Program-made: the position numbers and the translations under genes
The notes under the pieces: generated by a model
What the model was told of the DNA's origin: nothing
The model's input: only the letters and a program-made list of their open reading frames with translations
Databases searched by the model: none
Shown here: in pieces, positions 7,213 through 38,953 of the stretch
How positions within the stretch are numbered: position 1 is the stretch's first letter
Layout: each line of letters begins with the position of its first letter
IMG/VR virus record: IMGVR_UViG_3300032893_000056
Span: 1 to 56,411 of that record
From: a virus
Length of the DNA: 56,411 nucleotides
Reading direction: 5' to 3' (one strand)

Positions 7213-7944
7213 TTACGAAAAGCAAGCATCTCGTGTAATTTTTTCCATGTTCTTGAGATCCATGCCGAACTTCACCTCACAGTCGAGGGGAACGACCCAC
7301 TCGTAACCGAAACATCTCTTGATGTTGGCGATCAGATCATCGAACACTTCGTAAAACAAGCGTGCGATCTGGGAAATATACTGAGCCTCCGCATCGATCA
7401 CAATCGAATCGTGTACGGTGGAAACAACCAAGGCTGGGATTCCACTTGATTTCAGTCGCCGGAAGAAGCTGATCCGGGCAATCATCATAACATCCGCACC
7501 TGTGCCCTGCACCGGGTAGTTCGTCAGAGTTGTCCATGGTATCTTTATCTCTCCCGATGGGCTACGACCAAGGTTGATGATCCACTGCCTTCCACTCGGA
7601 CCCTCCAATGGCCTTCCGGCAACGACACTGTTGCACCATTGTTTGTGGCACTTATCGATTCCGGAATACTTGGAGTAGAACTTTTCTCCGATTCCATCCC
7701 AGAACTTTGGATCGTTAGAGACGTGAGTAAAGGCTGGATCGTGCGCAAATGACCAACCACTTCCTCGATAGATTGTGCGGAAGAGATAGATCTTTGCAAT
7801 GAGGCGAGAAGGCAGATCAAATGATGCTTGGTTGAGACTATGTGTATCCGCTCCTGCAAGGACTTCAGCAATTCCTGTTGAGTCACGACTCATCTCCAGT
7901 AGTACGCGCCACTCAAGCTGGCTTGCGTCCGCTTGTATTAGCAA
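7213..7944 (-). CDS. DNA polymerase I (family A), C-terminal part of split gene
   Basis: Carries the polymerase palm and fingers: motif A DASQLEWRVLLEMS at the very start, motif B LIAKIYLFRTIYRGSG around residue 47, and motif C VHDSIV near residue 180. The start is a TTG three bases after the stop of a 61-residue gene. Everything upstream of motif A (exonuclease and thumb) is in the separate gene at 8261-9397. Together they would form one complete T7-like polymerase of about 620 residues. Whether the halves assemble as two chains or the gap is removed from RNA is unresolved. Confidence 0.9.
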   Translation of the reverse strand: MLIQADASQLEWRVLLEMSRDSTGIAEVLAGADTHSLNQASFDLPSRLIAKIYLFRTIYRGSGWSFAHDPAFTHVSNDPKFWDGIGEKFYSKYSGIDKCHKQWCNSVVAGRPLEGPSGRQWIINLGRSPSGEIKIPWTTLTNYPVQGTGADVMMIARISFFRRLKSSGIPALVVSTVHDSIVIDAEAQYISQIARLFYEVFDDLIANIKRCFGYEWVVPLDCEVKFGMDLKNMEKITRDACFS

Positions 7945-7947
7945 TAA

Positions 7948-8133
7948 TTAGACTCCGATAATGCCGTTATCATCTCCCTTAATCTCTCGAAGTTTGATCT
8001 GCAACTTCAATTCATCGAAAGTTTCCTTCGGAAGACCTTGAACAAAATCATAAAAATTATCACTGTACTCAAGAAGAACGAACATATCGTTCAACATCTT
8101 CTCTTCATTTAGCCGGGATTTGCTGCGAGCCAT
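7948..8133 (-). CDS. Small helical protein between the polymerase halves, 61 aa
   Basis: Begins MARSKSRLNEEKMLNDMF and includes a stretch FYDFVQGLPKETFDELKLQI. The composition and helical pattern look like a true protein, and the ATG overlaps the end of the preceding small gene. It ends three bases before the polymerase C-part starts. No family recognised. It is one of two genes filling the interruption in the polymerase. Confidence 0.6.
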   Translation of the reverse strand: MARSKSRLNEEKMLNDMFVLLEYSDNFYDFVQGLPKETFDELKLQIKLREIKGDDNGIIGV

Positions 8134-8264
8134 GTGGTGATCTCCGCATTTTGTTCATTAAGATTTTGAATCATCGCCAACAGATTGGTAATGTCCGCCT
8201 GATAGGCAGCCAATTGCTGTTGGTTATTCTGAAGGAGTTGTTGTAGTACTTGTTGAATTGTCAA
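8109..8264 (-). CDS. Gln-rich coiled-coil peptide between the polymerase halves, 51 aa
   Basis: An open frame beginning TTG ACA at 8264, overlapping the TGA stop of the polymerase N-part in the compact TTGA arrangement. The product is Gln/Asn/Leu-rich (MTIQQVLQQLLQNNQQQ) with a heptad-like pattern through LLAMIQNLNEQNAEI. Start-stop coupling on both sides argues for translation. No family recognised. Association with the split polymerase is only a suggestion. Confidence 0.55.
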   Translation of the reverse strand: MTIQQVLQQLLQNNQQQLAAYQADITNLLAMIQNLNEQNAEITTWLAANPG

Positions 8265-9397
8265 TCGTTATACCTCGAAATGAAAAGGTCGTTTGCTTCA
8301 CTATCTAGATTCTGGAGATTCGGGCCACTGGAACTGAGACGCCCGGTGGCTACGGTCACTTGATTAAATTGGCCGTGGAGATATCCCGGTTCCCAATTCT
8401 GTTCCGCTGCTTTCTTGACCAGTCCTTCATATGTCTTGGACAACAGAGTCTCCAGTCGTGTTTGCTTTTGGATAAGCTCGATAATCCTCCGAGTCTTTCG
8501 TGATGGTTTCAGCTTCAGTAGGGTATCAGCATTGGTAGCGAAGTACCCCTCCTTCTTAAGTGCTGACCCACGGAGAGGTTCAACCAGCCGAGGCAATTGG
8601 TGCTCTACTTTATTTACTTTGAAGCGAGGTTCACCAATTCGTTTGCCTGACTTGTAATAACCGATACACTCCCTTACTTCTTCAACAATCGTCCCACCGT
8701 AAAGAAAGGCAGACAGATGGTCCCCAGAAGAGAAGTTAATAGGCACATCAGGATAAACTCCGTGAAGTTCGTTGGTGATTTCTGATATCTCGTTTTTAAT
8801 CTCCTCAGCACGGCTCCTACAGAGTTCCTCATTATACCTGATGCCGTTCCACTCCATCTCCTCCAGTACCAACAGGTCCAAACACATCAGCCGCACTAGT
8901 CGCTTTGATGTTGGCGGCATATGTTCCATCTGGTTGTAGTACAAATTCAAGGTTTGTTGGGCATCCGTGGATGCATAGGATGAAAGTATCTCCCACGGAA
9001 TATCCTCCGTCTGAATTCCCTTCGCCCAATACTCCTTCGCCACTACGTCTTCCTTGTGTCCAAGCCCATATTTGACTAAAGACTCCTCCAGTGAGGGATA
9101 CTTCCATGTTTGATTGCTCCTTACAAATTCAGCTAGCTGGCAGTCCCAGACTCGTTTGTCCCCCCACTCGACTCCAAGTTTTCTAAGGACGTGTGCATCA
9201 TATTTGAAATTGAAACCAACGAGAAGGTCAGCTTGTCTAATTCGTTCTGCAAGTTCCGCAAGACTATCCGGGCTTGTCTTAACTGCTCCTGCACCACTTT
9301 GATCTGCCCAACTCCAGCATACATTTTTGAATCGTCGATCAAATGGGGCCCCAACATTATAGGTATTATTTTCCGTATCCAAAGCTAGAACTTTCAA
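8261..9397 (-). CDS. DNA polymerase I (family A), N-terminal part of split gene
   Basis: Contains the 3'-5' exonuclease (exo I: VLALDTENNTYN; exo II: LVGFNFKYDAHVL; exo III region: SSYASTDAQQT) and the start of the polymerase domain up to TGRLSSSGPNLQNLDSEAND, then stops before motif A. The start is placed at TTG 9397, which overlaps the HNH stop (TTGA) and has GGAGG upstream; this gives MKVLALDTENNT, parallel to the N-terminus of the HNH gene. Motif A and the rest follow in the gene at 7213-7944. Confidence 0.9.
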   Translation of the reverse strand: MKVLALDTENNTYNVGAPFDRRFKNVCWSWADQSGAGAVKTSPDSLAELAERIRQADLLVGFNFKYDAHVLRKLGVEWGDKRVWDCQLAEFVRSNQTWKYPSLEESLVKYGLGHKEDVVAKEYWAKGIQTEDIPWEILSSYASTDAQQTLNLYYNQMEHMPPTSKRLVRLMCLDLLVLEEMEWNGIRYNEELCRSRAEEIKNEISEITNELHGVYPDVPINFSSGDHLSAFLYGGTIVEEVRECIGYYKSGKRIGEPRFKVNKVEHQLPRLVEPLRGSALKKEGYFATNADTLLKLKPSRKTRRIIELIQKQTRLETLLSKTYEGLVKKAAEQNWEPGYLHGQFNQVTVATGRLSSSGPNLQNLDSEANDLFISRYND

Positions 9398-9822
9398 ATA
9401 CGCCTCCAAGATTTTCGGAGTTTGATAGCACTAACATTGGCTTTGGTAATTCCATACTCTTTGGCAATCTCCAATTGTGGTCGAACATCCTCACGTATCC
9501 GCAGTACCTGTTCTGCCGTTAACTTTGGTGTTCCATTTCGAGCTGCCCTCCCTTTACGTACCATATCCTCCATATTGTCTTTGTGTGTTCCTATGAACAA
9601 ATGAGCAATCTCATAACACGCGGGATTATCACAATGATGGCAAATTTTCATGCCTGTTGGAATAGGTCCGTTATATTTCATCCACTCCAATCTATGAACT
9701 CCTTGTGGACGACCCTCATATTGTTTCATTCCATAGCCGTCTTTGTCCTTATATCCCGCCCATTCTTTACACGGAACTGTATTCCACGTGTTATTCTCGG
9801 TATCGATCGCTAATACGTTCAC
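9394..9822 (-). CDS. HNH homing-type endonuclease carrying a polymerase-like N-terminus, 142 aa
   Basis: The first ~15 residues (MNVLAIDTENNTWNT) copy the exo I start of the DNA polymerase encoded immediately downstream. The remainder is a typical phage HNH nuclease: HRLEWMKYNGPIP, CHHCDNPACYEIAHLFIGT, KDNMEDMVRKGR, then a C-terminal helix-turn-helix-like segment (LTAEQVLRIREDV ... EIAKEYGITKANVSAI). It appears to have inserted at, or arrived with, the 5' end of a polymerase gene. The shared codons differ at many synonymous positions, so this is not a recent local duplication. Confidence 0.88.
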   Translation of the reverse strand: MNVLAIDTENNTWNTVPCKEWAGYKDKDGYGMKQYEGRPQGVHRLEWMKYNGPIPTGMKICHHCDNPACYEIAHLFIGTHKDNMEDMVRKGRAARNGTPKLTAEQVLRIREDVRPQLEIAKEYGITKANVSAIKLRKSWRRI

Positions 9823-11804: not shown

Positions 11805-11833
11805 ATGGTATATATTCTTGATCACTTTGTCAA
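11805..11833 (-). promoter_or_regulatory. Sigma70-like promoter driving the helicase/polymerase operon
   Basis: Perfect -35 TTGACA and -10 TACCAT with a 17-base spacer. The -35 and spacer closely resemble those of the minus-strand promoter at 28185-28213. It would transcribe the HNH gene, helicase, polymerase and onward. An inverted repeat CTAGGGT/ACCCTAG lies just upstream (11840-11868). Confidence 0.7.
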
Positions 11834-12933: not shown

Positions 12934-13593
12934 TCACTTGACAGGAGTTGCAATATTGATGCCATAAGGAGTTTCACCAAAACCTTGAGGGTTAAAAATG
13001 GCTTCTGCTTGTCCCAAAACACAACCTTCTTCAGTATCGATTACTGCTCCACCACTATTTCCCGGAAGAATCTTGGCATCCAGAATAATCACACCGTCAT
13101 TATCGGGCTTCTGAATATATCCAAAGGACATACTATCCATAACCCCATATGGTGCTCCCATAATGGCGATAAACTCTCCGTAATAAGGTTTGAATGTACA
13201 AACTTTGAGGCCCGAGACCACGTGACTTGTGTCCGTTTTCGGAATGAGTGTGGCAAAATCCTCCTTATCAGCATCAACGGTACTTACCCAATCAGTTTTC
13301 CAAAGCTCTATTGTCTTATCCGAGAAATACACAACCACTTCGTGTTCTCCCGGATGGAAGTCAAAACAGTGTGCAGCCGTGTGAATCTTTCCATCTTTTG
13401 CACTGATCCAACCAGAACATACGGCTCCGCCATCCGTCTCAAACTGCACCACATTCTCTTGTAACTGCGTCAATGTGGGAGGTTGATGACTGTTGATATA
13501 GTTAACTTCCACCTTCTGATGAATACCAATAGCTACTAATACTGCGAATGAAAGTGCTCCAAGAAAGGAACCGAATTTGATAAGAGTGTTCAT
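12934..13593 (-). CDS. Trypsin-like serine protease with N-terminal membrane anchor, 219 aa
   Basis: Chymotrypsin-fold peptidase with the full triad in order: H75 (TAAHC), D112 (KEDFATL) and S180 (LPGNSGG). C59 and C76 could form the classic disulfide beside the catalytic histidine. A hydrophobic segment at residues ~8-25 suggests a signal peptide or anchor, placing the domain in the periplasm. Such proteases are unusual in phage early regions. It could cleave envelope or competing-phage proteins, or be a host-derived accessory gene. It overlaps the 62-aa gene upstream by four bases. Confidence 0.88.
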   Translation of the reverse strand: MNTLIKFGSFLGALSFAVLVAIGIHQKVEVNYINSHQPPTLTQLQENVVQFETDGGAVCSGWISAKDGKIHTAAHCFDFHPGEHEVVVYFSDKTIELWKTDWVSTVDADKEDFATLIPKTDTSHVVSGLKVCTFKPYYGEFIAIMGAPYGVMDSMSFGYIQKPDNDGVIILDAKILPGNSGGAVIDTEEGCVLGQAEAIFNPQGFGETPYGINIATPVK

Positions 13594-13780: not shown

Positions 13781-14092
13781 TTAAGCCACCAGTGAATCGT
13801 CAGGATAAAACCAGTGAAAACTCTCCGATCCATCATATTCATGAATCTCGAAACGATTACCTTTTGGCACCCATTCAATTCGAAGGTCTGGAGCCCCTCC
13901 CGTATAAAGATATTCACCGGGATATTTATTTTTAACATACTCCGGAATATCTTCACGCCTATTCTCTTCTACCATTTGCACCACAACCGGATCAAATATG
14001 AGTTCTTCTTTGTTATGCCAGCTATACCAACCAGCACCATAGCCGGGAGAATAAAGCACGGCAATCTTTCCATCACGTTCAACTTTGTCCAT
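13781..14092 (-). CDS. Conserved phage protein, 103 aa
   Basis: The start is set at the ATG at 14092, preceded by AAGGAAAAAGTTT. It opens MDKVERDGKIAVLYSPGYGA and continues GWYSWHNKEELIFDP, a pattern seen in small proteins of many phages next to replication genes. The function is not known. It overlaps the primase gene by 14 bases. Confidence 0.65.
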   Translation of the reverse strand: MDKVERDGKIAVLYSPGYGAGWYSWHNKEELIFDPVVVQMVEENRREDIPEYVKNKYPGEYLYTGGAPDLRIEWVPKGNRFEIHEYDGSESFHWFYPDDSLVA

Positions 14093-14855
14093 AAACTTTT
14101 TCCTTAATATAGCGTTGAATGGCAACCTCGCTATAATCTTTTGGATCTAGCTCCGTATAGATCACATAGGATTTACAGCCTAATAGGTCAGTTCGTTCCT
14201 TCTGCTTCTGTGCATCTTTATACTTATCAGCATCCAACCACCACACTAGGTGGTCAAATCGCTTGCTGATCCGGGCAAGTTTCCGAGGCGAAACTGTTGA
14301 AGAAAAGCACGGGATTCCGACAAAGCCGGACTTTCCCACTTTGAGTGCGCTGATGCAATCTTCGACAAATACTCCAACCGGACCGTCCGTTTGTTTTGGA
14401 GGATAAGTTGCAATAACTTCTTCTGGTGTTCCTCCAGTAAAGAAGCGTGATTTGTGGTCGGTGCCGCTTCTGAAGTTTCGGGCTTGCCAGAGGACAACAT
14501 CCTCATCTTGTCCATAAAAGAGGTATACGAGTTGTTCACGACGTTGACTCCATTTGATGTTGTTACGAATAAGATCTTCTACATGTAGATCATACTTCCT
14601 TATCCAATGAATGGCAGCCTCTCCGTACTCAAAGTTAAGGTCTTCAGGAGGGGGTCGTAGTCCTTGATCTGATAATGATGGTGCCGAATTACCCCTTTCA
14701 GCCCCTCTAATTGCCGTTTCCACTTCTCCTCGGTAGAATTTTCCGCATCCAAAACAAAAACCCGTCCCGTTAGAATACCATCCAACGTTGTCTCGACTAC
14801 CACACGTCTCACAAGGGCCGTGTCGAACAAATCTAGTTCGGTCTCGTTCATACAT
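14079..14855 (-). CDS. DNA primase with zinc finger and TOPRIM domain, 258 aa
   Basis: An N-terminal zinc-binding CETC...CFGC (C15, C18, C34, C37) reads template signals for primer start. A TOPRIM catalytic core follows, with VFVEDCISALKVG holding the catalytic Glu and WWLDADKY supplying the metal-binding Asp pair. It corresponds to the primase half of T7 gp4, with the helicase encoded separately at 10044-11282. The RBS is AGAGGT before the ATG at 14855. Confidence 0.9.
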   Translation of the reverse strand: MYERDRTRFVRHGPCETCGSRDNVGWYSNGTGFCFGCGKFYRGEVETAIRGAERGNSAPSLSDQGLRPPPEDLNFEYGEAAIHWIRKYDLHVEDLIRNNIKWSQRREQLVYLFYGQDEDVVLWQARNFRSGTDHKSRFFTGGTPEEVIATYPPKQTDGPVGVFVEDCISALKVGKSGFVGIPCFSSTVSPRKLARISKRFDHLVWWLDADKYKDAQKQKERTDLLGCKSYVIYTELDPKDYSEVAIQRYIKEKVYGQS

Positions 14856-15162
14856 GTTTACCTCTATTGACTTTCTTGGGTTTGATGATCTCCATCGTCA
14901 ACAACGGAGCCACAGTTACCCACAACTGGTAGTGTTCATCTTCGGCTCGATTGGTGGAGATGCATTCTTCCTTCTTACGTACGATATAACCAGCCGAACC
15001 CTTTGCCTTGTCGATTGCTTGCGCTGCTCGTCGCATTGATAATTGTACCTCCGGACACATACAGCTACTTGGTTGGTCACACGTAGTGTTCTTTTTCCAC
15101 GCGTCACCACTTTCAAACACCCTTCCACAAGCCTTACAGGTAACCTTACCGACTGTCTTCAT
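14848..15162 (-). CDS. Zinc-ribbon protein, 104 aa
   Basis: The start is assigned to the ATG at 15162 after GAAGAAGGG; the longer frame upstream overlaps another gene. It contains CKAC near residue 9 and a second cysteine cluster (CDQPSSCMC), suggesting zinc binding, followed by a basic region. Family unknown. It directly precedes the primase gene. Confidence 0.6.
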   Translation of the reverse strand: MKTVGKVTCKACGRVFESGDAWKKNTTCDQPSSCMCPEVQLSMRRAAQAIDKAKGSAGYIVRKKEECISTNRAEDEHYQLWVTVAPLLTMEIIKPKKVNRGKHV

Positions 15163-15394
15163 CGTACCCTTCTTCGAGTCCAGTGATCCCAAACCCACTT
15201 GTTTCGAAGCTTTCATCGGTTGCATCATCTCCCATATCAATGTTTTCGACGTAACCTTCTCCGTCGACGGCAGCAATATCATCAGCAACATAAGAATAAC
15301 AACGATCACATAGATCCACGAAGCTTCCATTGGATGAATATTTCCTTGTTGATTCTCGATTGTTTAGTCGTTTATCGCAGGAAAGGCATCTCAT
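15146..15394 (-). CDS. Small zinc-ribbon phage protein, 82 aa
   Basis: Begins MRCLSCDKRLNNRESTRKY with a second CDRC pair near residue 30, forming a four-cysteine zinc ribbon, then a long acidic tail. Proteins starting with this pattern recur in podoviruses; their role is not established. The ATG touches the last base of the preceding gene. Confidence 0.7.
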   Translation of the reverse strand: MRCLSCDKRLNNRESTRKYSSNGSFVDLCDRCYSYVADDIAAVDGEGYVENIDMGDDATDESFETSGFGITGLEEGYDEDSR

Positions 15395-15837
15395 TATCGA
15401 CGACCTCGAAGAATTTGTTGGTTTGCTAGGCGGATCAGTGCTTCTTGACGGAGCCGTTGTTGGTTCTCATTCAGATCGTTCCAACCAATAGCGAATTCTT
15501 CCTGTACCGCATATACGGGTTCTGGTTCCTGTTTCTTTTTCACATTCGGTGGTACCAGAGTAAGGATAATATCTTCCTGCGTGAGCCGATCCGGGAAGTT
15601 GCGGGCCTTACTGTTGAAGTAAGACACCTGGCCCGTGATCGGAGCCTTAATGGACTCCAGCGCATCATTGGTTTCAATCACCAACATGGCCCCTTCCTGC
15701 TCCACACGACGCGTATCGGCTTGCAGCACATGGAAACATTCATTCATCTTGCGGTTGATGAACGCTTGCACGAATCCGATGTTGATAGTCCCATCTTCTT
15801 GCTCATCAATCCAGATATCACCTTGAACTTGTTTCAT
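15394..15837 (-). CDS. GcvH/lipoyl-domain-like protein lacking the lipoyl lysine, 147 aa
   Basis: Residues ~5-85 follow the layout of glycine cleavage H protein: a strand-turn-strand start (GDIWIDEQEDGTINIGF), then the hairpin IETNDALESIKAPITG, which aligns without gaps to the VESVKAASDVYAPVSG region around the lipoylated lysine of GcvH. The modified lysine is replaced by Asp58, so the fold may be kept without the cofactor. The C-terminal ~60 residues are extra. The gene lies just downstream of the amide-ligase cassette, where it could be a carrier or scaffold, but this is inferred from position. Confidence 0.6.
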   Translation of the reverse strand: MKQVQGDIWIDEQEDGTINIGFVQAFINRKMNECFHVLQADTRRVEQEGAMLVIETNDALESIKAPITGQVSYFNSKARNFPDRLTQEDIILTLVPPNVKKKQEPEPVYAVQEEFAIGWNDLNENQQRLRQEALIRLANQQILRGRR

Positions 15838-16007
15838 TTCCGAATCTCCTCAACGGATACAGCGGTTACCAGATATCGCTTGCCATAGAATTTCTGGCGA
15901 CGATCTACGATCTTAACAGGAAAGTTATCGGTGCGAACGTACCCATCGAGTTCCCATTCCCCGTCTTCAATTCGGGTCACGGTTATAACATAGAGTTCCA
16001 ATTTCAT
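15834..16007 (-). CDS. Hypothetical protein, 57 aa
   Basis: Open frame from the ATG at 16007, overlapping the ATP-grasp stop and ending in an ATGA overlap with the GcvH-like gene. It begins MKLELYVITVTRIEDGEWEL, looks all-beta and ends with a basic helix. No family recognised; the double overlap supports coding. Confidence 0.65.
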   Translation of the reverse strand: MKLELYVITVTRIEDGEWELDGYVRTDNFPVKIVDRRQKFYGKRYLVTAVSVEEIRK

Positions 16008-16738
16008 CACACACCTCGAATGTGTTTTACAAAAGCCGCTGCGTATTTGTCCACCGTCGATCCCTCAAGACCGGGAGCCGTGTTGACTTCCAAACAGTAC
16101 ACCTCGTTCCGTTTGGCATTATATATGAGGTCAACGGCTCCAAAGTCCAAGCCAAGTTTCGACACAGCCGCCACCGCCATTTCTCGCAGTCGCTCTGGTT
16201 CGACGATGTTTTCACGACAATAGACCCATCCGGTCTGATGATTACGTACCTGAAAGTTTGTAGCGAAGTCGTCGGGGAGATCTCTTCGCTTTCGCTTTTC
16301 TTGAACATCGATCACTTCTCCAAAGGCTACGTGAACACGGAACTCCTGTTGCTTCTTCACATATCGGACATATAGCGGCGCAGCAGGCAGCGTAGCATCT
16401 TGCTCACTAACCAATACAATCCCAGCCCCGCTATGACCAGTAAGCTTAGTACGAGCCACAACAGCCACATGATCTTCTCGAAGCCACTTGTAGGCCACAT
16501 CAACATCGGTTGTGAATTCAGGAATTCGAATACCTTCTGCATCTTTCAGGGCCTCGAAAGTATGTAGCTTATTACCAGCACGAGCCACAGAATCAAACCG
16601 ATTGATAACGTGATCCACCCTAACATTCCCATTACTGCACCCCCAATTAATCAAATGCCGAACACCTCGTCGATCAAAGATCGGATTGGGGCGATCATTG
16701 TAGAGTCGTACCACTCGGGACGACAATAACTGAGCCAT
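16007..16738 (-). CDS. ATP-grasp carboxylate-amine ligase, 243 aa
   Basis: RimK-like ATP-grasp fold. After an N-terminal domain (LYNDRPN ... RHLINWGCSN) come the ATP-binding loop VVARTKLTGHSGAGIVLV, the strand YVRYVKKQQEFRVHVAFG and the metal-binding C-terminal LGLDFGAVDLIYNAK ... YCLEVNTAPGL. These enzymes form amide or peptide bonds through an acyl phosphate. The start is placed at the ATG at 16738, overlapping the upstream glutaminase gene by 44 bases. It forms part of a cluster with two further COOH-NH2 ligases and two glutaminases. Confidence 0.9.
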   Translation of the reverse strand: MAQLLSSRVVRLYNDRPNPIFDRRGVRHLINWGCSNGNVRVDHVINRFDSVARAGNKLHTFEALKDAEGIRIPEFTTDVDVAYKWLREDHVAVVARTKLTGHSGAGIVLVSEQDATLPAAPLYVRYVKKQQEFRVHVAFGEVIDVQEKRKRRDLPDDFATNFQVRNHQTGWVYCRENIVEPERLREMAVAAVSKLGLDFGAVDLIYNAKRNEVYCLEVNTAPGLEGSTVDKYAAAFVKHIRGV

Positions 16739-18329
16739 TCTTGCCGACAGGTTCGCCGCTGACTGACTCGCTATCTTGTATGGCAGCAGAGCGACTAGTC
16801 GCGGGCTGGCCCTTACGATCCTGTTGAACTGCAAGTTTCTTCTGGTAGTACGTTTGGCTGTATTTTGCATAGAACTCCCCATCGAGGGCCTTCATAATAC
16901 AATCGGGACACACGACTTCAACTGCGTTAATCGGATTGCCACTCTGAGTCTTGCCGTGGACACCCTTGGTTTTGACACTTGTCCAACCACGTTCCCAATC
17001 TTCGATTAGACCACCACAATCACGGCAGGAACAGGTGTCAGTTACATGATGCCACAGGCGCTCACTAACAACTTGAGCATTGTGGGCCAGTGTTTGCGGA
17101 AGCAATTCACAATCCCGAACATAGACCGAGATACCACAGACAGTCTTGGTACACCAGCCCACCTTGGCAAGAATGGGAAATTCCATCCACCGAGGCCACT
17201 CATTCCCAAGGAGGCTGCGAGGCAAGAACCCTTGAGCGTCGTACATCTCGACGCCGGGCTCGACGACTTTGCCTGTCCATTTGATAGCGCCGTTGGGCAA
17301 GGCTTTCACATCCCAGATCTTCACCGCGATCTCTCGGCCTTTTGGGAGGTCTGCCAACTCCACCTTCAAAGACTGTTGCTGTGCCTCCAGACTAGTAAGG
17401 CCATCCTCTCCACCGACCTTCTTCGATTTGGAGTCGCTGTTCGTCGTACTGGTCGACGTCAGAGCACACGTCTTTTGCATCGGTGATGCAGGGGAACAAT
17501 CTTTTTTTGCCGCCGGAAAGGTTACCTGCGTCCCCTTCAGCGGCAATGCCTCCCCCAAGTCATCCTCCCATGTGCCGGCAACGCCTTGCGAGGCCATCCA
17601 AGCCTTGTATCGAGCTGCCATCTGCGGATCTTGATGGAGACCCACTGGCTCTGTCTTCAACTCACCCCTCAGATTGAATGTGAGCAACTCCCCGGGTTCA
17701 ATTTCCTTTGACTCAATGACTTTGATACGCTCACGGATACACGGAATGGTCGCCATCCACGACTCACTGGCGAGAAAGTAGAAGTCATCTGTGGTGATCA
17801 AAGACAGGGGCCGTTGGTCATTCCGCACAGCATGGAACAACTCCGTTTCCATATCGAACCACAGCAGAGCAAACGCCCCTTCGATAGTGGGGATAACTTT
17901 CTGTGGTGTACCTTCCGTCAGTGCATGGCAGATTGCATGGCTATCAACTTCCACCTTTTCAGTGGTGAGCTTTTCCCAACCATAATCGAGAGTACCATTG
18001 TGCATCAGCACGATGTTCTTCTCATAGAACGGATGGGCATTCTCATTGGTCACATTGCCACGAGTTGCTGCTCGGTTGTGGCCCGCAAGAATACGACCTT
18101 CACCTGTGGAACGCAGTCGAAACTGATTCCATTGTTGACACCGGAGCATGAAGTATGGCTGCTCCGCTTGTTTCATCATATCCACCGATCCATCTCGGCG
18201 AATGTTGATAACTCCAGTCGAATCTTTGCCTCGAACAGTATCGAAAATCAACATCTGTTCGAACATATCCAGAGTCTTTGAGTTGAAACCCATCGGTCGT
18301 CGAGCGACAATGCTTACGAGGCCGCACAT
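16695..18329 (-). CDS. Class II glutamine amidotransferase (Ntn hydrolase) with C-terminal zinc ribbon, 544 aa
   Basis: The N-terminal ~240 residues form a GATase-II domain: nucleophile Cys2 exposed after Met removal (MCGLVSIVARR), oxyanion and substrate loops GHNRAATRG and NAHPF, then LMHNGTLDY. It would release ammonia from glutamine. The middle is low-complexity (Ser/Thr/Lys). The C-terminal part carries a zinc ribbon (CSCRDCGG ... CPDC) and no recognisable synthetase domain, so ammonia would be delivered to a partner, most simply the adjacent ATP-grasp or amidoligase enzymes. Confidence 0.9.
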   Translation of the reverse strand: MCGLVSIVARRPMGFNSKTLDMFEQMLIFDTVRGKDSTGVINIRRDGSVDMMKQAEQPYFMLRCQQWNQFRLRSTGEGRILAGHNRAATRGNVTNENAHPFYEKNIVLMHNGTLDYGWEKLTTEKVEVDSHAICHALTEGTPQKVIPTIEGAFALLWFDMETELFHAVRNDQRPLSLITTDDFYFLASESWMATIPCIRERIKVIESKEIEPGELLTFNLRGELKTEPVGLHQDPQMAARYKAWMASQGVAGTWEDDLGEALPLKGTQVTFPAAKKDCSPASPMQKTCALTSTSTTNSDSKSKKVGGEDGLTSLEAQQQSLKVELADLPKGREIAVKIWDVKALPNGAIKWTGKVVEPGVEMYDAQGFLPRSLLGNEWPRWMEFPILAKVGWCTKTVCGISVYVRDCELLPQTLAHNAQVVSERLWHHVTDTCSCRDCGGLIEDWERGWTSVKTKGVHGKTQSGNPINAVEVVCPDCIMKALDGEFYAKYSQTYYQKKLAVQQDRKGQPATSRSAAIQDSESVSGEPVGKNGSVIVVPSGTTLQ

Positions 18330-18334
18330 AGAGG

Positions 18335-19252
18335 TTAGATTCCTTTAACGATTTTGGTGGTAAAGAACGGAGCGGTAGCAACGTCTCGCTCAACAATCAA
18401 CTTCGTGGTCGTGCCGGTGGAGATAAACGCTTGCTTCATATTGGCCACAGATTCACGAATCTCTTCGTAACCAGTATATCCAAGAGCTCCCATATTTGAA
18501 GTTCCGAAGATATCCAATAACAGCAGGCCGACGTTGACGGACTCGTCAAATCCATGCAGCAGTTTTCGAAGCTCACCTACATCTGACTTATGGACGAAAT
18601 CCACCAAACGGGTAAGCATATCCACCCACTTCGTGAGCTTGGCCACATCGCGAGTACCGTGCATATGGCGGAACTCAATGGTGCCTTTCTCTCGTAACGG
18701 AACCAGATTCAGCCCGGAATACTTCGACCAACCATCGGTAACGTTGTTCAATCGCTTATCTGCGATACCGGAAAGTTGGGCTGTCTCCAGTACAGGAACA
18801 CAAAAGATATTCTTGTTTCGCCCACGACCAGCAAATCGATAGAACAACGGTTCGAACACTGAATACAGCAGCACAATATTCGAGATCTTTTCGATGGGCA
18901 CATCTTGACAGTTCACGTGGACATGTACACTTGTCCGAGGACTGAAGCAACATTCATCCATCAGTGCTTCATTCATCAGATTGTGCAGTGCTCCCGGTGC
19001 ATATCGCGCTTGGATGGGCCGAGTGAGCCATTCGATGCCATTATTGCGCAAGCTCCCATCATCGGTAGCTGTCCACACAGCCTTTGGATATTGACGAAGC
19101 TCATGATTTTCCACTTCAACTTCAATGCCAACCAGCCGATTTGATAGTCCTTCTTCCGGCTGGATACCATCAGGCACATGCTCTCCCACCGCATCTAGTC
19201 CGAAGTAATTTCGAACGGTTACCACCTTCGGAGCAGCAGGTTTCTTCGCCAT
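18335..19252 (-). CDS. Amidoligase (glutamine synthetase-fold COOH-NH2 ligase), 305 aa
   Basis: Amidoligase family signature: VGIEVEVEN for metal binding, DDGSLRNNGIEWLTRP, SVHVHVN, and KGTIEFRHMHGT, which holds the conserved Glu and Arg. These enzymes share the glutamine synthetase fold and ligate amines to carboxylates. The start is set at the ATG at 19252, one base after the upstream stop and after GGAAGC; upstream in-frame ATGs at 19264 and 19276 are alternatives. It belongs to the phage ligase/glutaminase cassette described from comparative genomics by Aravind and colleagues. Confidence 0.88.
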   Translation of the reverse strand: MAKKPAAPKVVTVRNYFGLDAVGEHVPDGIQPEEGLSNRLVGIEVEVENHELRQYPKAVWTATDDGSLRNNGIEWLTRPIQARYAPGALHNLMNEALMDECCFSPRTSVHVHVNCQDVPIEKISNIVLLYSVFEPLFYRFAGRGRNKNIFCVPVLETAQLSGIADKRLNNVTDGWSKYSGLNLVPLREKGTIEFRHMHGTRDVAKLTKWVDMLTRLVDFVHKSDVGELRKLLHGFDESVNVGLLLLDIFGTSNMGALGYTGYEEIRESVANMKQAFISTGTTTKLIVERDVATAPFFTTKIVKGI

Positions 19253-19253
19253 C

Positions 19254-19874
19254 TTAGCTTCCATGTAGAACCTCATTGACGTTAGCTTCCATCACCTCTT
19301 CATACAAGGTGGCCAGTTTCCCATCAGCAGTCACACGAGCAACCGGATCTGTCCAGAACAGCAACAGATGCTCCTTCGCCTGAGTCGGACTGAGTGCAAT
19401 CGAGAAGTTATTCTCCAATGCAACACTCCGAGCCATGCGCTTATCTAACAGTTGCAGGGCTTCACCTATCGGATATGTCTTGTGCTTAAATGCGGCACTC
19501 ACCGTATTGATGGACATATTATGTCCCGGCCCACCCAGATGGCGCATGGTAGTGGACAACGTACTATTGTCTGAACAGATACCACGCCGCCACTGACGAG
19601 CAGGCCGCCTATGGAAATAACACGCATTGCTCCCATGTTGAAATACACCACTCTTGGGATAACGGAACATCAGGCTGTGATCCGAACTACCAAGATTTAT
19701 AGTCATGGAGCCGTAGTCCGCAGACTCAAGGTGTAGCACACCTACCTTGCTCTCGTCGTGTTCTACTTGGCGGACGAATACCAGCGTTTCAATTCCCTTA
19801 CCCTTCATCTTCAGCCAGACGTAGGTCTCTTGCCAGCGTCGGCGAAAGTCTTCTACTACCTGTGCGTTATCCAT
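19254..19874 (-). CDS. Unknown protein within the amide-ligase cassette, 206 aa
   Basis: No family recognised. Charged N-terminal helix, beta-rich middle (SMTINLGSSDHSLMFRYP), an Arg/His-rich stretch (ACYFHRRPARQWRRG) and a helical C-terminus. It sits between the two COOH-NH2 ligase genes with 1-base gaps on both sides, so it is co-expressed with them and may be a partner or substrate. Confidence 0.75.
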   Translation of the reverse strand: MDNAQVVEDFRRRWQETYVWLKMKGKGIETLVFVRQVEHDESKVGVLHLESADYGSMTINLGSSDHSLMFRYPKSGVFQHGSNACYFHRRPARQWRRGICSDNSTLSTTMRHLGGPGHNMSINTVSAAFKHKTYPIGEALQLLDKRMARSVALENNFSIALSPTQAKEHLLLFWTDPVARVTADGKLATLYEEVMEANVNEVLHGS

Positions 19875-19875
19875 A

Positions 19876-20652
19876 TTAAAGGTCGAACTCCAGTTTCAGT
19901 TCAGCCAGCAGATCCATGTCGCTCTCGTTGATACAGCGTTGAATCCTTATACCTTGTTCTTCCGTGAAGCCTTTGCCACTACGAGCATAAGCAAGAGCCT
20001 TCTCCGACTGGTCCCATGCCCATTGAATACGCTCGTCCGTTTCGATCCAAGCGTTGGATGCCGTGCGATACTCCACACCATACGGCTTGTACCGGAATGC
20101 ACCAGCTTTGCCATACAACTCCCTCCGTTGTTTGTCGTGGTCAAACTCCAACATGAGACAGCCCACGAACAGATCCATTGCCTTGATTACTTCGATCGGA
20201 TCATCGACACCCATATCCAATGCAACATGAATGTGACCACCACACGAACGAAGATTCTTATTCTTCGAACGCGGGCGGGGATTCATCCGACCATCCTTCC
20301 ACGCATTGAAGTCGGGCTCACACCCGAACGTTTGAGCTTCTCGACTGTGCAATTGTTCGTCGGTAAACTCAGCCGATGGGATGATACACATCTCCAGACC
20401 AAGGGACTTCGCCTTCTCGGCGATCCATTCCTTGTTGATGTTGATGTGCTTGATGAAGTCTGCTGCGGATTGGCACGGCGGAGTGTTGAACTCCACTGCA
20501 ACGTTATCCTCCTGCACAGCGTTGCCCTGTTCATCGATGGGCATCGGACGTTCCTTTGAACCCCCGATCTTACGAACACTGCTGATGAACTCTCCATTCA
20601 GCGGATTGCGGAGAAACACTTCCGGGTCGCTTCCGAGCATAAAGTTTTGCAT
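19876..20652 (-). CDS. COOH-NH2 ligase type 2 (phiEco32-like), 258 aa
   Basis: Matches the phage phiEco32-like COOH-NH2 ligase type 2 family: LGSDPEVFLRNP at the N-terminus, VAVEFNTPPC, then CGGHIHVALD in the metal/nucleotide site and GVEYRTASNAW near the C-terminus, all within a glutamine synthetase-like fold. It would form an amide bond between an amine and a carboxylate. The ATG at 20652 has GGGAG seven bases upstream. This start overlaps a copy of the GTTTG-N6-CAAAC-type element, so its translation may be regulated. Confidence 0.88.
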   Translation of the reverse strand: MQNFMLGSDPEVFLRNPLNGEFISSVRKIGGSKERPMPIDEQGNAVQEDNVAVEFNTPPCQSAADFIKHININKEWIAEKAKSLGLEMCIIPSAEFTDEQLHSREAQTFGCEPDFNAWKDGRMNPRPRSKNKNLRSCGGHIHVALDMGVDDPIEVIKAMDLFVGCLMLEFDHDKQRRELYGKAGAFRYKPYGVEYRTASNAWIETDERIQWAWDQSEKALAYARSGKGFTEEQGIRIQRCINESDMDLLAELKLEFDL

Positions 20653-20670
20653 GTTCAAACTCCCTTACAG
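20644..20670. repeat. Palindromic element A (GTTTG-N6/7-CAAAC family)
   Basis: On the minus strand this reads CTGTAAGGGAGTTTGAAC followed by ATGCAAAAC. It resembles element B across about 27 bases and spans the end of the class I glutaminase gene, the RBS and the start of the COOH-NH2 ligase gene. The core differs from the other copies by one extra A. Confidence 0.6.
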
Positions 20671-21339
20671 ATCGTTAAGGATAAACTTATGAACAAGTTG
20701 CATACAATACTGTACAAACGGATCATTCTCCGGGTCCGAATGGAACTCCGGGTGACCCTGAATAGCCAATGCCTTGATCTTCGGGAACCACACAATCTCA
20801 GGTTCTACCTTATCCTCCATACGTGGATCAGACGTATCATCCCCAATGATGTAGCAACCACGCGAGCGAGGCTTCTGTGCCCACGCAATCATCTCGTGAT
20901 CCACATCAAACGGATACATCATCTGATGGTGTACCGAACTAGTCACGATATCATCACGTCCATCGAACGTAGACAACAGGTGCCTCCTGCCGTGGTTCTC
21001 GACGTGTTGGATCAACCGTCCCCCAGCAAGGGCACATACCAGTTGAGCGCCTCGACATACACCAATAATGGGGATATCCCTCTTGATGCACTCTTCGACG
21101 GCGGCTTTTTCGACGATATCACGGTGAGATAGACGGGCATCAGCCCCATTTGCCGCAGATACCTTGTCTCCGTAGATGGTCGGCGAGATATCTTCCCCAC
21201 CCCATACAACCAGCGCGTCAATGTCGGCTCCATCGGCGATATCCTTTGGACGAACAAACAAACCCTTCGGGTACACTTGATCAAACGGCTCATGTTCACC
21301 TGTACCCATCCCAAGATAACCCAACGTCTTAATAGTCAT
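20665..21339 (-). CDS. Class I glutamine amidotransferase-like hydrolase (peptidase C26), 224 aa
   Basis: Gamma-glutamyl hydrolase/GATase-I fold. Nucleophile elbow GVCRGAQLVCALAGG, with WGGEDISP earlier and the catalytic His in IQGHPEF near the C-terminus. It either releases ammonia from glutamine or cleaves gamma-glutamyl amides. The start is set at the ATG at 21339 with GAGG upstream; nearby in-frame ATGs are alternatives. It is the first enzyme of the ligase cassette and could supply nitrogen for, or reverse, the ligase reactions. Confidence 0.85.
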   Translation of the reverse strand: MTIKTLGYLGMGTGEHEPFDQVYPKGLFVRPKDIADGADIDALVVWGGEDISPTIYGDKVSAANGADARLSHRDIVEKAAVEECIKRDIPIIGVCRGAQLVCALAGGRLIQHVENHGRRHLLSTFDGRDDIVTSSVHHQMMYPFDVDHEMIAWAQKPRSRGCYIIGDDTSDPRMEDKVEPEIVWFPKIKALAIQGHPEFHSDPENDPFVQYCMQLVHKFILNDL

Positions 21340-21368
21340 TGTCATCATCCTCGTCAATAATCCGATCT

Positions 21369-21734
21369 TCAACCGTTTTTTTGATTGTAAATGTACCAGC
21401 TATCTACCGTGTTGCTGGAATTTTCGTTGTAAAACGTGCCGATGTGCTTGGCATCTGGATGTGCCTTGACAAGAGCACGCAATTCTCCCGCACAGTAGCC
21501 CTCTTCATCCTTCACCCCATAAACATCTTCCTCATATTCGTCCGGATACTTGGGCTTGACAAAGTTGAAGATAAGAGGTTGATCTTGGGCTTCTTCGAGG
21601 GCACTCTTCAACACCTTTTCCCATGAGTTATGTTGAATCTCGCAGGAGCTATAACCATCCCGCACGCGGAAATAACCGGCTTCATAGAAACCGCAGCAGT
21701 GGGGAAGGGGATTCACATCACAGCCGTATCTCAT
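21369..21734 (-). CDS. Hypothetical protein, 121 aa
   Basis: Cysteine-containing N-terminus (MRYGCDVNPLPHCCGFYEAG), acidic middle and a C-terminal YNENSSNTVDSWYIYNQ. No family recognised. It lies directly upstream of the class I glutaminase in the same operon and overlaps the gene before it by four bases. Confidence 0.65.
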   Translation of the reverse strand: MRYGCDVNPLPHCCGFYEAGYFRVRDGYSSCEIQHNSWEKVLKSALEEAQDQPLIFNFVKPKYPDEYEEDVYGVKDEEGYCAGELRALVKAHPDAKHIGTFYNENSSNTVDSWYIYNQKNG

Positions 21735-28184: not shown

Positions 28185-28213
28185 ATGGTATATATTCTTA
28201 ATGCATTTGTCAA
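28185..28213 (-). promoter_or_regulatory. Sigma70-like promoter, leftward (early)
   Basis: TTGACA and TACCAT separated by 17 bases on the minus strand. The spacer and flanks match the promoter at 11805-11833. It initiates the leftward transcript into the small-gene cluster. Confidence 0.72.
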
Positions 28214-28261: not shown

Positions 28262-28290
28262 TTGACAAATCGATCAAGATAGTATATAAT
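28262..28290 (+). promoter_or_regulatory. Consensus sigma70 promoter, rightward
   Basis: Perfect TTGACA and perfect TATAAT with a 17-base spacer, so expected to be very strong with host holoenzyme. Its -35 and part of the spacer (CTTGACAAATCGATCAAGA) resemble the two leftward promoters. It drives terminase and the structural operon. Confidence 0.9.
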
Positions 28291-37735: not shown

Positions 37736-38953
37736 ATGACAATATCCATTTATTCCGGGGTTACTGCTTCGGGTGGATCAGGATCGGGATCATCATATAA
37801 ATATACGACCGGGACTACTTATACCGGACTGGTAGCTACACGCTGCAAGGCGGCGACTGCTGGTAATCAAGGCGTGCTGCAACATATGGCCCGCTCAATT
37901 CACGTAGCACGAACTAATATCACCCAGATTGGTGTTGCTGTTGCTAATTGGTATGTTAGTTCGACATATGAGTTCAGCGGCGGAGCCGATTGTACTGTTA
38001 AAGTCAGCATTGAGTATCCACTAGGCGGTACGATTTATCCCCTCACTTTTGGCGGAAATGCGACCGGACTCGTCTATAATCTGACCACTCTCATGAGTGA
38101 TCTGGCAAATGTGAATATTCCCAATGGAGCGACTTTTGCAGTTCGGGAATACCGAGTTTGTAACTCTGGAGGTTCTCCGGTTTGTAATGGTGGCAGTGAG
38201 AATATGTTTCTCGATCAGACCAATGGAGAATGTTATGCACAGGGTAATAGCCTAAGTGATTTGACTGGCGTTCCCGGTACGTTTGCTAATACCGGAAATA
38301 TGATCACTCTTGCGTTTTATCGCCCTGTGGCGATATTTGGCCCAACGACAGTTCCAAGTTATGCCCTTTGTGGTGCAAGTGCTACTGAAGGATATATGGA
38401 TCAATATAATGGGTCATGGGATTGTGGATTGGTTGCTCGTACAATCGGTCCAATTCGTGCTTATACGAATCTTGGACGCGGCGGAGAGACGATTCAGAAT
38501 GTCACGGATACGGGTAATTTTTCGCTCCGGGCACAAATTGTTAAAGCCTTTTGCACACACATGACATGTGACTATGGTGCTAATGACTTTATAGCCGGTG
38601 CAAATGCCCAAAATACTCTAGCACGACTTCTAAAATTTCGTGCTATGTTTCCAGAGAAGTATTTCTACTATGTTACTAGTTGTCCTGATACTACTTCAAC
38701 TGATGGTTGGACGACAGTTGTTAATCAGACTGTGGAGACTGGAGCAAGTGAGCGAGTAGAATACAATAACTATGTTCGGGCAAATACCAGTTGGGCCGGA
38801 AGTAATTTTGATGGTGTCTATGACACTACTCCCATCACGGAGTCTTCAATTAACTCATCGAAATGGGTACCGGGACTGACCACAGATGGGGACCATCCGA
38901 CACCCGCAGGCTATGCAGCTATCGCCGCATCAGGTATTATCAAGGTAATGTAG
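37736..38953 (+). CDS. SGNH/GDSL hydrolase, probable tail-associated esterase, 405 aa
   Basis: The N-terminal ~195 residues are a beta-rich domain that probably mediates virion attachment. The C-terminal SGNH hydrolase shows block I GASATEG (nucleophile S215), block II GRGGE, block III GANDF (281-285) and block V TDGDHPTPAGY (D384, H387). Such enzymes deacetylate surface polysaccharides. In a run of fibre and spike genes it is most likely a receptor-modifying tail component. Confidence 0.85.
   Translation: MTISIYSGVTASGGSGSGSSYKYTTGTTYTGLVATRCKAATAGNQGVLQHMARSIHVARTNITQIGVAVANWYVSSTYEFSGGADCTVKVSIEYPLGGTIYPLTFGGNATGLVYNLTTLMSDLANVNIPNGATFAVREYRVCNSGGSPVCNGGSENMFLDQTNGECYAQGNSLSDLTGVPGTFANTGNMITLAFYRPVAIFGPTTVPSYALCGASATEGYMDQYNGSWDCGLVARTIGPIRAYTNLGRGGETIQNVTDTGNFSLRAQIVKAFCTHMTCDYGANDFIAGANAQNTLARLLKFRAMFPEKYFYYVTSCPDTTSTDGWTTVVNQTVETGASERVEYNNYVRANTSWAGSNFDGVYDTTPITESSINSSKWVPGLTTDGDHPTPAGYAAIAASGIIKVM

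Follow-up and report, generated by a model that had tools for sequence, protein, structure and literature searches.

A phage amide-ligase island of the phiEco32/LUZ24 type with a predicted gamma-glutamyl hydrolase and a lysine-less lipoyl-like accessory

Introduction

The phages phiEco32, Salmonella 7-11 and the LUZ24-PaP3-UFV-P2 group possess a tight same-strand cluster of genes near their replication genes, encoding in order a COOH-NH2 ligase, a protein of ~190-206 aa, an Amidoligase_2, a class-II glutamine amidotransferase (GAT-II) and an ATP-grasp ligase; this gene order is listed for UFV-P2 in PMC3890496. PMC11945000 treats the LUZ24-type set (GGCT, ATP-grasp, aminohydrolase, amidoligase, COOH-NH2 ligase) as a putative peptidoglycan modification module reported earlier, and suggests superinfection exclusion or preparation for lysis as its role. 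The cell-wall suggestion is repeated for phiEco32 in PMC10580990, and both papers cite Iyer et al. 2009 as the source of the proposal. No experimental test of the island enzymes was found in the open-access papers searched. Here we analyse an island of this kind in a single viral record, IMGVR_UViG_3300032893_000056, the whole 56,411 bp of which are referred to as the window.

The window shares the order, the compactness and the replication-gene setting of these islands. It differs from the phiEco32/LUZ24 type by an added C26-family gene upstream and an added gene for a GcvH-like protein downstream, whilst the GGCT, HNH and DUF7195 genes of UFV-P2 were not found in the window's island. Its 206-aa protein is matched in UFV-P2 and 7-11 mainly by position (18-19% identity). 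The closest named relative is Alcaligenes phage vB_Af_QDWS535, which has the same order of C26, COOH-NH2 ligase (52%), 206-aa protein (28%), Amidoligase (39%), GAT-II, ATP-grasp and a short divergent GcvH-like open reading frame (ORF). That ORF differs from the window's in being 94 aa long and unannotated and in having Tyr at the lipoyl position, and the Alcaligenes phage differs also in a GGCT gene further upstream. A reduced island of OM43-phage type (PMC10580990) retains three core enzymes, Amidoligase, GAT-II and ATP-grasp, ordered as in the window; the COOH-NH2 ligase, C26 and 206-aa protein were not detected within that stretch. The island as such has been described before, as the phiEco32/LUZ24-type module; in the window it comes with accessories. 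What is added here is a reassignment of the C26 protein, a quantified linkage, two architectures, a fold for the 206-aa protein and an accessory, lipoyl-like but without the lysine, that marks out a local variant.

Results

Linkage and distribution

When IMG/VR was scanned with an alignment of the COOH-NH2 ligase, 378 relatives emerged; 80 loci were kept, and loci were scanned with iterated profiles built for each island family. For the linkage counts we took the 41 non-identical viral loci in which the anchor gene, the COOH-NH2 ligase, is flanked by 5 kb or more upstream and 7 kb or more downstream. GAT-II and ATP-grasp are present in all of these full loci (41/41 each), Amidoligase_2 in 40/41 and C26 in 35/41, and the strand is the same in every case. 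Of the 89 scanned sequences, which include a few overlapping stretches of the same contig, 46 show precisely the order C26, COOH-NH2 ligase, 206-aa protein, Amidoligase, GAT-II, ATP-grasp. When the neighbourhood ORFs are clustered without supervision, the five commonest families are GAT-II, Amidoligase, COOH-NH2 ligase, ATP-grasp and C26, ahead of primase. Since the set recurs across diverse phages and tops this clustering, chance is excluded as the reason for the grouping, and the genes are inherited as a unit. Family matches and the linkage in the 41 loci uphold this part of the initial annotation, three ATP-dependent ligases and a class-II glutaminase in one operon, as a linked pathway that related phages conserve.

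The COOH-NH2 ligase has matches in 315 of 50,697 phage records and the amidoligase in 322, and the two sets break down almost identically by host genus; a DNA-level search of phage records gave no match. In 84,980 prokaryote genomes the matches come to only nine contigs. All nine derive from metagenome-assembled genomes, and on eight of them further island genes are present. We conclude that the island belongs essentially to viruses.

Of the 41 full loci, 21 encode the 206-aa protein, 16 encode GGCT and none encodes both (Fisher p 4.7e-8, not corrected for phylogeny). Across all 89 sequences, 56 have the 206-aa protein only, 22 GGCT only, one both and ten neither. That the two never meet in the full loci suggests two island types. 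The GGCT type (for example loci L035, L061 and L067) has the same enzyme families as the window but in a different order (ATP-grasp, C26, COOH-NH2 ligase, GAT-II, Amidoligase), with GGCT present and the 206-aa protein absent. The reduced Amidoligase-GAT-II-ATP-grasp form was seen in phages reached via the neighbouring Zn-ribbon gene, and it resembles the island of the OM43 phage (PMC10580990). Constant linkage of the 206-aa and GcvH-like genes, which the initial annotation had put forward as a check, holds for the former within one of the two architectures; the GcvH-like gene is confined to the window's subclade.

The three ligases

The AlphaFold2 model of the COOH-NH2 ligase has a predicted local distance difference test (pLDDT) score of 95.5, and Foldseek matches it to gamma-glutamylmethylamide synthetase (GmaS, E 7e-6), with YbdK and glutamine synthetase (GS) similar. 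Because of these matches the ligase fold foreseen for it is supported. The conserved DPE, Glu58, GGHxH and Arg/Tyr-Gly motifs are present in the window's protein, as are the conserved GxExE and HxH of its Amidoligase_2, and both enzymes belong to the GS/GCS-like ligase group. PDB sequence searches with profiles of the COOH-NH2 ligase, the 206-aa protein and the Amidoligase yielded nothing useful.

The ATP-grasp active-site residues are almost invariant across homologues (Lys 80/80, Asp 79/80, Glu 78/80, Asn 75/80) and correspond to Lys108, Asp254, Glu268 and Asn270 in the window. The nearest solved relatives are RimK alpha-L-glutamate ligases and the NCBIfam match is MptN; these matches sit below the equivalog cut-offs, and a substrate is not assignable from them. 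By its sequence the enzyme falls within the RimK alpha-glutamate-ligase group.

One glutaminase and a predicted hydrolase

The catalytic Cys of GAT-II is present in 88/88 homologues, with the HxR/HNG motifs and Asp conserved. The window's protein has the N-terminal MCG with Cys2, HNR and HNG, and its glutaminase centre is, judged from these motifs, intact. The C-terminal region is Cys-rich and poorly conserved.

The class-I protein had been taken as a second, independent source of ammonia. It scores 67.5 bits with Pfam Peptidase_C26 against 34.3 for the general GATase model, and its best NCBIfam matches, both far below cut-off, are gamma-glutamyl-CDP-amidate hydrolase and gamma-Glu-GABA hydrolase. 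An HHQ motif, which we take to be typical of the gamma-glutamyl-hydrolase group, occurs in 84/87 homologues. The catalytic centre is well kept (Cys 75/79, His 78/79, Glu 78/79; Cys115, His216 and Glu218 in the window, ORF numbering). The protein is probably a C26 gamma-glutamyl hydrolase and not an ammonia source; two ammonia donors in one island now seem less likely.

The GcvH-like protein

Similarity of this protein to lipoyl domains is weak but consistent, the Pfam match lying just above its cut-off and those of NCBIfam below theirs. In an ungapped alignment to E. coli GcvH, Asp58 falls on the lipoyl-lysine (AESVKAASDIYAPVSG versus IETNDALESIKAPITG). The attachment Lys (ESVKA) is found in 0 of 15 homologues, which have Asp (10) or, once each, Glu, Tyr, Arg, Leu and Ala. 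Because the lysine is absent from every homologue, canonical lipoylation is ruled out, and a role as lipoyl carrier is rejected; the initial annotation had thought a carrier possible. The likeness to GcvH is one of domain, with the lipoyl-lysine replaced and no glycine-cleavage partners seen nearby.

The gene lies 3' of ATP-grasp in the window's close relatives and, in divergent form, in the Alcaligenes phage; a tblastn search of annotated phage records with the window's protein gave no match. Most islands are without it, and other gene families fill the slot behind ATP-grasp. One, of ~240 aa with a CR/KDFLND-like motif, occupies it in L021, L023, L025, L027, L039, L042, L063, L064, L078 and L085.

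The 206-aa protein

An AlphaFold2 model built with 40 homologues has a pLDDT of 93.9. No full-length PDB match was found at E<=0.001. Of the local matches, the better ones are to single Tudor/SH3-like barrels, and the significant matches among viral models (BFVD) are phage proteins without known function. On these grounds the 206-aa protein was rejected as an enzyme. Since it is modelled as small Tudor/SH3-like barrels with no full-length PDB counterpart, it is probably a binding adaptor. A scan with the single protein sequence found nothing.

Gene layout and neighbours

The plus strand of the window carries terminase, portal, head and tail genes and the minus strand the replication genes. The island sits in the minus-strand arm, upstream of primase (14079-14855). 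Its genes are transcribed in the order of Table 1, from C26/GATase-I to the GcvH-like gene. The first six form a chain spanning 16007-21372 with gaps of 1-6 nt or overlaps, and the GcvH-like gene starts 169 nt beyond ATP-grasp. GAT-II and ATP-grasp overlap by ~188 nt. Inside this overlap falls the conserved ATP-grasp N-terminus LLPYKIxSQSA, present in relatives too, which shows that the overlap is real. ORF positions with Pfam and PHROG matches confirm the seven genes where they had first been placed on this strand, except that the C26 ORF begins at 21372 and not 21339.

Table 1. Genes of the island in order of transcription, with the matches that identify them.
Gene product	Length (aa)	Coordinates	Strand	Evidence
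C26/class-I GATase-fold protein	235	20665-21372	minus	Pfam Peptidase_C26 1.9e-18; motifs GVCRG (Cys nucleophile), HHQ, GHPE
phiEco32-like COOH-NH2 ligase type 2	260	19876-20658	minus	Pfam COOH-NH2_lig 2e-10; phrog_3815 1.4e-70; glutamine-synthetase/GCS fold
206-aa protein	206	19254-19874	minus	without Pfam match; phrog_11055 5e-7; small Tudor/SH3-like beta-barrels; no catalytic motif recognised
Amidoligase_2 (GCS/GS-like)	313	18335-19276	minus	Pfam 6e-8; phrog_7469 2.7e-40; GxExE and H.H intact
Class-II glutamine amidotransferase (GAT-II; Ntn, Cys2)	544	16695-18329	minus	Pfam GATase_6 7e-13; phrog_4736 1.5e-58
ATP-grasp ligase, RimK/MptN type	291	16007-16882	minus	Pfam RimK 8.6e-5; phrog_2599 3.3e-72
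GcvH-like (lipoyl-domain) protein	147	15394-15837	minus	Pfam GCV_H 2.5e-5; Asp58 at lipoyl-lysine position

On the ATP-grasp side of the island, just upstream of primase, lies a gene for an 82-aa Zn-ribbon protein with an acidic tail (15146-15394, minus), a widespread phage family with at least 582 IMG/VR relatives. It was considered as a LysW-like carrier for the island and rejected as a dedicated partner: many phages have the Zn-ribbon without an island in the flank examined, and its C-terminus is not conserved. Amid the replication genes is a protease-like protein (12934-13593, minus; phrog_9683) with an N-terminal hydrophobic stretch.

Other features of the window

The minus strand has two copies of a promoter-like element that match its exact pattern, TTGACAAANNNATNAAGAATATATACCAT, at 11805-11833 and 28185-28213; their flanks are similar, and none is expected by chance. 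These are probably the leftward promoters of the phage. A perfect 12/12 sigma-70 consensus stands at 28262-28290 (plus), where two transcription arms diverge. Ribonucleotide reductase genes at opposite contig ends (250-2139 and 53983-55887, both minus) are 88% identical in protein and ~81% in DNA, and point either to a duplicated gene or to the joining of two strain variants during assembly. The DNA polymerase (7213-9409, minus) is split into ORFs 8261-9409 and 7213-7944 with ~316 nt between them. No Rfam intron was found, nor anything else in the Rfam search; the split could be due to an intron that went unrecognised, to a split gene or to a frameshift. On the plus strand, a GDSL-esterase-like protein (37736-38953) adjoins the tail-fibre genes and is perhaps a receptor- or capsule-deacetylating enzyme.

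Discussion

We propose, with a probability of about 0.55, that the island is a phage-specific, glutamate-centred amide-bond pathway operating in the host cytosol, the acceptor perhaps being a peptidoglycan precursor. The mechanism is built from the protein families. Each ligase would activate a carboxyl with ATP and join it to an amine. GAT-II would split glutamine and so supply the ligases with glutamate and with ammonia, the latter as an amide cap, and the RimK-type ligase would add glutamate. C26, together with GGCT in the other island type, would cut or recycle gamma-glutamyl bonds; that the alternative architecture includes GGCT, which is a gamma-glutamyl enzyme, counts in favour of a glutamate-centred pathway. 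The 206-aa Tudor/SH3-like protein may tether enzymes or substrate, and the GcvH-like protein, incapable of the usual lipoate carriage, may be a structural partner of ATP-grasp. The acceptor would most likely be a cytosolic peptidoglycan precursor or other small peptide, in line with the published proposal as later papers relay it. A wall modification of this sort could benefit the phage by excluding rivals or by altering lysis of the wall.

Several points weigh against this proposal. Against GS-fold enzymes the COOH-NH2 ligase reaches only moderate TM-scores, about 0.34-0.57 when taken by query length, and the exact substrates of GS/GCS-fold and ATP-grasp enzymes are not readable from the fold. 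The functions given to the 206-aa protein and to the C-terminal region of GAT-II are guesses. The peptidoglycan target is a computational proposal, quoted second-hand in the papers cited above.

The same enzymes could instead make a free small molecule, a gamma-glutamyl amide or short peptide such as a gamma-glutamylated polyamine, that remodels host nitrogen or polyamine metabolism or inhibits a host enzyme, leaving the wall alone. PuuA/PuuD and GmaS are enzymes of gamma-glutamyl-amine pathways, and the combination of a GS-fold ligase, a C26 hydrolase and GGCT parallels their chemistry; the closest fold to the COOH-NH2 ligase is gamma-glutamylmethylamide synthetase, and the NCBIfam matches of C26 are gamma-glutamyl hydrolases. 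LUZ24 gp9 bound the host gamma-glutamylpolyamine synthetase in a yeast two-hybrid assay (PMC4635203), although gp9 is not established as an island protein. Three ligases and GAT-II, however, exceed the needs of a one-step gamma-glutamylation, and no report of an island metabolite was found in the open-access papers searched. We regard this outcome as possible, if doubtful. It is unlikely that the island modifies a host protein, for instance a ribosomal or translation protein, with glutamate or an amide, the RimK-type ATP-grasp being the key enzyme. The nearest solved relatives of that enzyme are indeed RimK S6--L-glutamate ligases and its PHROG family is named 'ribosomal protein S6 glutaminyl transferase', but the name is annotation only, and simple glutamylation needs neither the other two ligases nor GAT-II nor C26.

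Modification of phage DNA, with amide ligases extending a carboxyl or amine handle on a base as in carboxymethylcytosine-glycine, has a precedent in CmoY, an asparagine-synthetase-like phage amide ligase that acts on such a handle and some relatives of which have a glutaminase domain (PMC12783734). The island also adjoins replication genes. Yet its ligases and CmoY are of different families, and no handle installer (C5-methyltransferase, CmoA, hydroxymethylase) appears among the recurrent neighbour families within 9 kb, only some of which are annotated, or among the larger window ORFs scanned, the small ones not all having been scanned. DNA hypermodification is disfavoured on this absence, and we hold it to be very unlikely. 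In LysW-type carriers the product is built on the terminal glutamate of the carrier protein. It is very unlikely that the GcvH-like protein represents a novel type of carrier, its conserved acidic residue replacing the swinging Lys so that the adjacent RimK-type ATP-grasp aminoacylates the carboxylate and the amide product grows on the protein.

For the amide-bond pathway proposed here, the two architectures, the three-gene minimal version, the predicted hydrolase and the lysine-less accessory narrow what has to be tested and define mutants with which the product could be sought in tractable lytic phages. Hundreds of phages of Pseudomonas, Escherichia, Vibrio and other hosts retain this pathway of five to six enzymes as a unit, and bacteria almost never do.

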